Below, one piece after another: positions 13,288 to 16,207 of a stretch of 64,000 nucleotides of DNA. Under the pieces are notes generated by a model. That model was not told the origin of the DNA. It saw only the letters and a program-made list of their open reading frames with translations, and searched no databases. The stretch is from Methanolinea sp. (lineage in GTDB: Archaea > Halobacteriota > Methanomicrobia > Methanomicrobiales > Methanospirillaceae). The number at the start of each line of letters is the position of its first letter. The stretch's first letter is position 1. The position numbers were made by a program, and so were the translations under genes. The stretch lies in the NCBI GenBank assembly GCA_029907345.1, contig JARYMB010000010.1:1-64000 (forward strand), read 5' to 3'.

Positions 13288-13385
13288 GAACGCAATTACC
13301 AAAATATTTTCAAAATTGAGATATTCTACCCCCATTTGAACTTACCGGGAACACTTTCACCCCGCGTGCTCTCCATCCTTATGAC

Positions 13386-13937
13386 ATGGGACGTGCCAGT
13401 GTAGCAGGCATGGAGTTAGTGCTTGGCCCCTCGGTGACACTGCGGAGCGGGACGTTCTCTGCCGTTGTCGCGCCCGAGGACGTGGTCCTTGCAGGCTTGA
13501 ACGACAACCCCGTCCTCTCGCGCTTCCTCTTCCTCTTCGTGAGCGGGAACTATTCGCGGCTTCTTTCGGGGATCAACAGGAGGACTGTCAGCATCGAGGT
13601 GAGGCGGGCATTCACGGCGTTCCAGCTCCTGCAGATCCTGCGTGAATCGTACCACACGATCGTCTTCGTGGAGCACGACCCCACCCTGTACGACGGGGCA
13701 GGGAGTGTGGCACAACAGGTGGGAGAGGATCTCCGGCAGCTCGGCCGGGGTGCACTCGTCGTCCTGTACACCGCGGTTCCCGATCCCTCCTTCGAGGCCA
13801 TTGCAGGGCTTGCCGACCGCGTCTTCTACCTTGCAAGCCCCGCGGCCGGTCTACCGGCACCCCGTGCGCGGGGACGCGGGAAGATCCGTTTTCCGGGAAA
13901 GCTCCCCCGGGGGCAGCAGACACTGGAGGGCGTGTGA
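13386..13937 (+). CDS. RecA-like protein without P-loop, first gene of polymerase cassette
   Basis: I do not recognise a named family for this 183-residue protein. It shows alternating hydrophobic strands and helices. A Walker B-like strand ends in acidic residues (HTIVFVEHDPTLYDG) and a later strand is ALVVLYTAVPDPSFEAIAGLADRVFYL, reminiscent of RecA/RadA/KaiC-fold ATPases, but no Walker A P-loop is present, so ATP hydrolysis is unlikely. The tail is basic (ARGRGKIRFPGKLPRGQ). An alternative ATG at 13410 would remove 8 residues and fits a TATA-like CCTTATGAC about 29 bases before it. The next gene starts one base after the stop. A role in DNA metabolism is inferred from the downstream polymerase. 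Confidence 0.65.
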   Translation: MGRASVAGMELVLGPSVTLRSGTFSAVVAPEDVVLAGLNDNPVLSRFLFLFVSGNYSRLLSGINRRTVSIEVRRAFTAFQLLQILRESYHTIVFVEHDPTLYDGAGSVAQQVGEDLRQLGRGALVVLYTAVPDPSFEAIAGLADRVFYLASPAAGLPAPRARGRGKIRFPGKLPRGQQTLEGV

Positions 13938-13938
13938 G

Positions 13939-14181
13939 ATGGGGAGGAGTTTTTCGAGTGTCAGGCAGGAGGTCAGGGCCCTCACGGAGCGGTGGGAGAG
14001 GGCTGCACGCACCCTTCCCGGTCGTGACCGGGAATGTGCCCTGCGCGTGGCCAGGATGGCAGGTGCACACGCGAGCGAGTGTTTTTATGCGTTCGACGAC
14101 CCCCTGGAGGCCGCGTTCTTCTCGGTCCTTCTGGAGCTGGCAGGGGAGTGCGGGGAGGGAGAGGGCCGTGTGGATCCTTGA
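13939..14181 (+). CDS. Small helical protein of polymerase cassette, unknown function
   Basis: This is an 80-residue protein starting MGRSFSSVRQEVRALTERW and rich in Arg, Glu and Ala, predicted to be almost wholly alpha-helical and possibly an adaptor. It contains no recognised motif. It lies one base after the RecA-like gene, and its last 14 bases overlap the GTG start of the DNA polymerase gene, so all three are likely co-translated. The frame has coding character (third-position G+C) consistent with its neighbours. Confidence 0.6.
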   Translation: MGRSFSSVRQEVRALTERWERAARTLPGRDRECALRVARMAGAHASECFYAFDDPLEAAFFSVLLELAGECGEGEGRVDP

Positions 14182-16207
14182 CTCGTGTTCCCGCGGCGGC
14201 CGGGTGGAGTTCTGGGAGAAGGGGAGGGGAGGGCGGCACGTCACCCTGCCCGCACCCCCCTCTTTCCTCCTCCACCTCCCCGATCCTCACTATCACCGTG
14301 ACCTGGTGGAGGGCCTGGAGAGCCTCTACCGCGTGGAAGAGTGCGCCATCCGTACGATACACGGCGTTCTCGAGGGTTACCGGGTCTGGGCAGGGAAAGA
14401 CGTTGCAGCCCGGATCGAGGAACAGACACGGTACGAGGCGCAGGTCTACGATGCCGATACCCGCCCCGACCTCGCTCTCATGGCAGAAGGGGGTTTCTTT
14501 CCCTGCAGCGAAGAGGGGGAGTCCCGTTTCTCTGTTGACTTCTCCCCTGACCTCTCGGTCGTAGAGATCCTGCCCGGGAAAAACCCTTTCTTCAGCGGCC
14601 CCCTCCCTGCCTTTGATCTCGTAGAAGGCGGGAGAAAGGAGAGGCTGGACGGGGACGAGAAGACAATCCTCTCGGACCTCGGCGGGGTCCTCTCTTCTGC
14701 CGATCCTGACGTCATCCTCTTTCCCCATGCCGACCTCTGGGTTCCCCGGATGGTTGCACGGGCACGCGATCTTGGCATCGGGACGGGACTCTCGCGGTCG
14801 GGCAGGTTCCGCCGGCTCTCCCGGAAGTCGTACTGGAGTTACGGGAGGACGGAGTTCCGCGCGGGGGCCCTCATCCCTGACGGGAGGCTGCTGATCGACA
14901 CCACCGGGAGCTTCCACTACAGGGAGAGCGGGCTTTTGGGCATTATCCTCGGGTCGCGGCTCTCGTGCCTTCCCCCAAACCTCGTATCGCGTTTTTCTTC
15001 CGGGACACTCATCTCCTCCTACGAGGTGTACGAGGCAAAAAGGCGGGGCATTGCGGTCCCGTGGAGGAAGGCAGACGCCGAGAGCGTGCGGGGCCTCCCC
15101 GAGCTCCGTGCCGCGGACCGAGGGGGGATGATCTTCCAGCCAGACCCCGGTATCCATGACCGTGTCTTCGAGATCGATTTCACCTCGCTGTACCCCTCCC
15201 TCATCGTCCGGGACAACCTCTCTCCCGAGACGCTCACCTGCCCCGGGAGGAGGGGTTTTCTCCCGGATGTCCTCGAACCCCTGCTTACCATGCGACGCAG
15301 GACAAAGGAGCTGAAGGCATCCGACCCCCGGTACGCAGGCCGCGACGCCCTCCTCAAGTGGATGCTCGTCACGTGCTTTGGGTACACGGGCTACCGCAAC
15401 GCCAAGTTCGGGCAGATAGAGGTGCACGAGGCTATCACCGGGAGCGCCCGGGAAGTCCTCATCCGGGCGCGCGACATCGCCGAAGAGATGGGTTTTTCCG
15501 TCCTCCACGGGATCGTGGACTGCCTGTGGGTCAGGGGAGGAGACATCCGTGCACTCAGGGAACGCGTCGAACGCGAGACCGGACTCCACGCCGTTACGGG
15601 TACCTACGACTGGATCGTCTTTCTCCCCATGGCGGACGGGACCGGCGCGTACAACCGTTACTACGGCAGGCTGCAGGACGGAAGCATGAAGTTCAGGGGT
15701 GTTGCGGCGCGGAGGGGCGATACGCCCCCGTACATCAGGGACGTCCAGCACCGGATGCTGCAGATCCTCGGGTCGGCAGCAACGCTGCGCGATATTGCAG
15801 GCCTGCGCGACCCGCTCCAGGCACTCTACAGGGAGGCCCGGGATGCCCTTCCCGCTGCAGATCCGGCAGGAATGGCAGTCACCCGGAGGATCAGCACCCT
15901 CAGCTACCGCCGTGCCTGTGCCGAGGCATCGGCCGTGGAGGCATGCAGGGCGGAGGAAATCGACATCTTTCCCGGGATGGAGGTGCGGTTCGTGGTTACA
16001 GATGCCCGCACGTGGGCAGTGGAACTGGACTGGAAGGCCACCCGCTTCGACGTGGGCTACTACCGTGGTCTCCTCGAAAAGGCGTGGGAAGAGGTCATCT
16101 TTGCGGTGGAACAGGCCAGCCTCGCGGTTCACGGGACGGGCCGGACGGCAGCAGACGGGCAGGGGCGGTCACGGCAGGAACCTTCGCCGTCACCCGCGAA
16201 GCCGTGA
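14168..16207 (+). CDS. Family B DNA polymerase with degenerate motifs (PolB2-like)
   Basis: This is a 679-residue family B polymerase starting at GTG 14168; the frame extends further upstream but only as a shadow of the preceding genes. Motif A is intact ([11 protein letters not shown]337). Motif B is altered: K397 is present but the usual Asn and Tyr are Val and Phe ([10 protein letters not shown]). Motif C reads HGIVDCLW instead of YGDTDS, keeping only the second Asp (D451). The exonuclease region lacks a clear DxE Exo I, and the Exo II-like stretch is [13 protein letters not shown]. It resembles the shorter archaeal PolB2 group, whose members have been proposed to be inactive or to act in damage bypass. 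It ends 7 bases before a convergent nuclease gene. Confidence 0.82.

Follow-up and report, generated by a model that had tools for sequence, protein, structure and literature searches.

Organization of the locus

Three genes lie one behind the other on the plus strand of the window, the whole stretch of 64,000 nucleotides of Methanolinea DNA that was analysed (Table 1). The first two are separated by a single base, while the second and third overlap by 14 bases, and the coordinates confirm the compact layout that the initial annotation had described. The polymerase encoded by the third gene is 92% identical to that of locus L034, and the source genome lies near Methanolinea MAGs. The genome also has radA in its canonical form, another gene of the Rad51 family and one for a polymerase of the Y family.

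Table 1. Coordinates of the genes, motifs and regulatory features, in the window unless a contig is named.
Feature	Position	Strand	Description and basis
Conserved promoter element CACTTTCACCCC, core ACTTTC[AG]C	13352..13363	+	Alignment and counts in relatives
Putative TATA-like box CTTAT	13378..13382	+	Some 30 nt upstream of the probable iRadA start; position kept in relatives
ORF1 as initially called	13386-13937	+	183 aa
iRadA, likely extent	13410..13937	+	RecA/Rad51 fold without Walker A; start placed by comparison
iRadA C-terminal QQTLEGV	13914..13934	+	Resembles a PCNA-interacting motif; codons also form the PPB2 Shine-Dalgarno site
PPB2 Shine-Dalgarno-like GGAGG	13925..13929	+	Inside the iRadA end; sequence
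ORF2, PPB2 (arCOG07300-like)	13939-14181	+	80 aa; N-terminal MGRS arm and three helices; conserved MGR[ST] start and model
ORF3, PolB2	14168-16207	+	679 aa, GTG start; NCBIfam NF004416 match and 15-sequence alignment
PolB2 D(R/K) motif (D317 R318)	15116..15121	+	D invariant, followed by R or K, in 15/15; contact with PPB2 arm published (PMC11791011)
PolB2 motif C, altered	15506..15523	+	HGIVDC replaces YGDTDS; sequence, alignment with relatives
Second PPB2-like gene, no N-terminal arm	Source genome (G000), contig C8:2524-2724 (L180:2415-2748)		CACTTTCACACC upstream

The three proteins

The product of the third gene matches the PolB2 family model NCBIfam NF004416 with 857.5 bits (cut-off 516) and Pfam DNA_pol_B with 54.5 bits (cut-off 23); the Pfam scan found no exonuclease domain. 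The first aspartate of motif C is substituted, which changes DTD to IVD, and HGIVDC or a close variant is kept in the 15 PolB2 relatives that were aligned. Motif B is also altered and is kept in this form across the 15 relatives, with its lysine invariant in all of them, as is the intact aspartate of motif A. These family matches and the altered motifs B and C bear out the earlier description of a family B polymerase with modified catalytic motifs; the combination of an intact motif A with an altered motif C is that of the characterised PolB2 proteins (PMC7390963, PMC11791011).

The first gene had been called with 183 residues, and the reading frame stands while the start probably does not. 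In relatives the gene begins at a methionine that corresponds to position 13410 (ATGGAG); because of this residue and of the CTTAT box about 30 nt upstream of it, iRadA probably starts at 13410 and comprises 175 residues. Searches of Pfam, NCBIfam and PDB sequences returned no family for this protein, and it was placed by its fold alone. A model built from 33 homologues (pLDDT 80, pTM 0.74) has a RAD51-paralogue complex as its best Foldseek match (E=1.1e-5, probability 1.00), followed by RecA and RAD51 filaments. The protein carries a Walker-B-like strand (TIVFVEHDP), and the P-loop GxxxxGK[ST] is absent from all 33 homologues, in agreement with the initial reading of a RecA-like protein with Walker B and without Walker A. 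It thus has the properties described for the iRadA of PolB2 mutasomes, namely a Rad51/RadA fold, no N-terminal helical domain and an inactive ATPase site. At its C-terminus Q.[TM]L is found in 33/33 homologues, and the same bases, CTGGAGG, serve PPB2 as its Shine-Dalgarno site and are kept ahead of this gene in most relatives; the conservation of the Leu-Glu pair may reflect either binding to the sliding clamp or the constraint of this site.

The second protein is likewise without a family in the Pfam, NCBIfam and PDB sequence searches. Its predicted structure (pLDDT 81.5) consists of three helices (residues 8-23, 28-43 and 55-75) and a disordered N-terminal arm, consistent with the helical character first proposed for it, and the MGR of the arm is invariant in 39/39 aligned sequences. 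Compared with the PDB, the model gives weak matches, the first of them a sigma factor (E=0.55), in agreement with the sigma-like shape of PPB2 noted in the literature (PMC11791011). Weak matches to RecN, RasGAP, ABC-ATPase and chemotaxis proteins were set aside as noise.

Conservation of the operon

The survey of the polymerase neighbourhood covered 95 genomes of Methanomicrobiales in which PolB2 is strongly matched. In 88 of them iRadA is no more than 2 kb away from PolB2, and PPB2 is found in 67; the three genes occur together in 64. Both partners are also present at 53 of the 62 named loci that have at least 1.5 kb of upstream sequence, and at some of these 62 loci both lie elsewhere or were not found. 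The small genes are therefore kept beside the polymerase, and the three-gene arrangement is not due to chance.

Between about a fifth and a quarter of the order's PolB2 genomes have an iRadA-PolB2 operon near which no PPB2 was found; most of these operons belong to two groups, one with family code f2 and the other with genus code g12. The search for an arm-bearing PPB2 close to the inspected iRadA-PolB2 pairs (L200-L208) found none, and such pairs were seen in G156, G168, G025, G079, G066, G049, G047, G027 and G037. At L067 and L086 about 0.7-1 kb separates PPB2 from PolB2, with a membrane-like ORF in between at L067, and a DUF72-like gene adjoins some Methanothrix operons (L086, L102).

Start codons of PPB2

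The PPB2 gene of the window starts with ATG. Among the 61 named PPB2 genes the start codon is ACG in ten (L046, L049, L057, L065, L077, L079, L083, L092, L111 and L113) and ATG, GTG or TTG in the rest; an ACG start also occurs in L117, L127 and L141, and CTG in L131. On the PolB2 tree the ACG start changes at least nine times, and ACG is found at none of 76 PolB2 starts. Two loci, L077 and L079, have a stop in frame directly or one codon before the ACG, and the conserved GRSF residues follow the ACG; because the stop precedes the ACG, no standard PPB2 start is possible at these two loci. In L057 and L065 a GTG one codon upstream offers an alternative start. We also considered that the ACG might be an internal threonine codon, and rejected this: the codon is ACG in ten of ten cases, against 29% of the threonine codons in the polymerase genes of the same loci, and two loci have the in-frame stops. 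The simplest reading of these sequences is that PPB2 is initiated at the ACG, beside which lie a strong Shine-Dalgarno site and the stop codon of iRadA. We did not find such a start for PPB2 in the literature; standard annotation will probably miss or mis-start the gene in several lineages.

An element upstream of the operon

An alignment of ten Methanolinea promoters reveals a conserved block, CACTTTC[AG]CNCC, within DNA that is otherwise little conserved. Its core, ACTTTC[AG]C, was found in 58 of 59 operons, in genomes from Methanolinea to Methanothrix, at a distance of 54-68 nt upstream of iRadA; control windows taken from these loci contain it in 26 of 12924 cases (0.2%). The distance from the element to the TATA-like box is about 16-19 nt, longer than in Sulfolobus. 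Of the order's 199 genomes, 151 contain element and box together (CACTTTCNCNCC-N9..15-YTTAT); with the pattern reversed the number is 4/199. The combination is rare, with 0-11 matches per genome. A sigma-70 promoter scan is uninformative for archaea.

The genes 30-110 nt downstream of these sites were examined across the order. The element precedes RadA (Pfam Rad51, 261 bits), NreA (Nre_N, 270 bits), a Mre11-like nuclease, RPA-like proteins, some Cdc6/Orc1 paralogues and a radical-SAM protein that resembles TIGR03916 (putative DNA modification/repair); example loci with CACTTTCNCNCC and the TATA-like box are L298, L300, L243, L267, L287 and L352. In the source genome it is found before the present operon, radA (L177:1199), NreA (C44:121625), a 139-aa protein (C22:46576) and the remote PPB2 on contig C8. 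Five of the ten genomes inspected for Cdc6 (G029, G089, G121, G040 and G043) have a paralogue with the element at its own promoter, and the highest-scoring Orc1 of each of the ten is not preceded by it; no element-bearing Cdc6 paralogue was seen in the source genome, the assembly of which is incomplete.

Some sites have no recognisable repair gene downstream, notably in a Methanocorpusculum-like group. A protein of about 139-148 aa without an assigned family (MKRAGYL...) has the element 46-80 nt upstream at L317, L318, L319, L335, L355 and L237, and the L317 protein has no match in Pfam. The element also precedes genes whose products, judged by eye, resemble a CRISPR Cas3 HD protein, TnpB-like transposase proteins and DUF1016-like nucleases (L339 in G064, L302 and L303 in G040, L338 and L345).

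Related sequences are known from two other archaeal groups. UV-B-induced genes of Halobacterium, radA1 among them, have TTTCACTTTCA in common some 50 nt ahead of the start, and radA of Methanospirillum was reported to be preceded by a similar motif (PMC2556686). In Sulfolobus, UV-inducible promoters require ACTTTC/ANTTTC directly upstream of the BRE, and Orc1-2 binds this element, also at its own promoter (PMC5817253, PMC9738581). The hexamer ACTTTC is common to all three groups: the methanogen element contains it as a form of the Sulfolobus ANTTTC, and shares with Halobacterium the longer CACTTTC[AG], which stands some 50-60 nt ahead of the start codon and precedes the TATA-like box. It differs from both in its longer C-rich extension (CNCC) and in its position before the PolB2 operon and PPB2 paralogues. 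It resembles a damage element, and the genes that it precedes form a candidate DNA-damage regulon in methanogens. We found no paper in the open-access literature that links the motif to the PolB2 operon in methanogens.

A remote PPB2 paralogue

Most Methanolinea genomes, and many relatives, carry a second PPB2-like gene elsewhere. In Methanolinea this remote copy lacks the MGRSxxS arm, is syntenic and adjoins a radical-SAM gene. In 15 of the 20 loci inspected the element lies about 54-76 nt upstream of its probable start, where distances at L191 and L196 were measured from the MGRS start. Armless PPB2 copies within operons have been reported, and mixed trimers with a single arm-bearing copy modelled best (PMC11791011). 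It is a plausible inference that the remote armless protein could supply the other two subunits of such a mixed trimer. A remote armless PPB2 with a shared element was not found in our search of the literature.

Discussion

Timinskas and co-workers (PMC11791011) described a set of PolB2, iRadA (a RadA without an ATPase site) and PPB2, often in the order iRadA-PPB2-PolB2, in which PPB2 (arCOG07300) forms a trimer with an MGRT arm and the D(K/R) motif of PolB2 touches this arm. The window copy agrees with that system in its gene order, single strand, RecA fold without a P-loop, MGR[ST] arm, D(R/K) motif and altered DxD, and differs in having MGRS instead of MGRT and IVD instead of IID. It has the testable features of the published system, and therefore the cassette joins an already known kind: with a probability of about 0.88, we read it as the PolB2 mutasome operon of a Methanolinea-like genome. 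The initial proposal, an archaeal module for damage tolerance or mutagenesis in which an adaptor and a RecA-like accessory take part, is equivalent to the role suggested for the PolB2 mutasome in that paper. As a methanogen example of a published family the cassette has an ordinary identity; it is the regulatory and paralogue observations that lift it above routine annotation. The published account describes neither a remote armless PPB2 nor a shared promoter element, and the words 'promoter' and 'start codon' do not occur in its main text.

The PolB2 of Sulfolobus islandicus (Dpo2) is a distant relative for which the papers report the same family B assignment, altered motif C, lack of a recognisable proofreading domain and operon with iRadA and arCOG07300. 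It is the only one of the two for which activity and damage induction have been demonstrated, and it is described as damage-inducible and as required for damage-induced mutagenesis (PMC11791011, PMC7390963). By extension from Sulfolobus, mutasome activity would be expected in the Methanolinea lineage; we infer the function and damage induction of the window operon. The E. coli Pol V mutasome (UmuC, a UmuD' dimer and RecA) offers an analogy, drawn in PMC11791011, as it also combines a polymerase, a small arm-bearing oligomer and a RecA-family protein; it differs in its Y-family polymerase, active RecA and unrelated small protein.

The observed gene content, fold, motifs and conservation, and the element common to radA and other repair genes, can be combined with published models and Sulfolobus genetics into a model for this system. 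DNA damage would switch on transcription by way of the CACTTTC element that precedes iRadA. The iRadA protein, a RadA relative without the ATP-binding loop, would bind to a beta-alpha motif of PolB2 as RadA subunits do to one another, and the PPB2 trimer would put one MGRS arm into the cleft between PolB2 and iRadA, near the DNA. PolB2, in which IVD replaces DTD and a proofreading domain is not recognisable, may then extend distorted or mismatched primer ends at lesions, the cost of such tolerance being mutations.

It could be argued that PolB2 has lost its polymerase activity altogether and merely regulates RadA or the replication fork as a dead scaffold, a view that accords with the replaced aspartate of motif C and with earlier predictions of PolB2 inactivation cited in PMC11791011. 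We consider this improbable: the residues retained in motifs A and B are invariant in all 15 relatives, and the similarly altered Sulfolobus Dpo2 is, according to the papers, an active extender that is needed for damage-induced mutagenesis. Descent in common with the bacterial ImuA-ImuB-DnaE2 cassette, to which the initial annotation compared these genes, is scarcely credible. The two share a similar logic of a RecA-like accessory, a small protein, a polymerase and probable damage control, but the polymerase here belongs to family B, the product of the middle gene is helical and 80 aa long, and the cassette holds neither a C-family DnaE2 nor a Y-family-like ImuB; the comparison survives as an analogy and fails as homology. 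A further alternative, that the upstream element is an ordinary feature of the core promoter, such as a growth-phase signal or BRE context, and is insensitive to damage, would account for the sites that precede no recognisable repair gene, especially in the Methanocorpusculum-like group. We judge it unlikely, given that so rare an element stands before radA, NreA, RPA-like, Mre11-like, radical-SAM and PolB2 genes, and that the matching Halobacterium motif has been linked to UV-B induction (PMC2556686).

With the element read as damage-responsive, a broader picture may be sketched, which we offer tentatively and as a possibility that we would not expect to hold as a whole. CACTTTC[AG]C might define a regulon of methanogens, haloarchaea and Sulfolobales (there as ANTTTC), perhaps read by a non-initiator Orc1/Cdc6 with the element before its own gene, and RadA, RPA, Mre11 and NreA would be controlled by the element alongside the PolB2 mutasome. 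The Methanolinea mutasome might contain a mixed trimer with the remote armless PPB2 and a single active arm, and in several lineages an ACG start might tune the dosage of PPB2. For the question of how archaea outside Sulfolobus switch on repair after damage, the element offers a concrete candidate regulon and a candidate regulator; it also ties two older motif reports, from Halobacterium in 2008 and Sulfolobus in 2017, to one sequence.

A viral origin of PolB2 was considered and set aside, since just three viral contigs carry a related polymerase, at no more than 40% identity, and neither partner gene was detected on them. PolB2-like copies in three genomes (G117 C38, G170 C11 and G173 C14) are broken by stop codons or fragmented and appear to be decaying.
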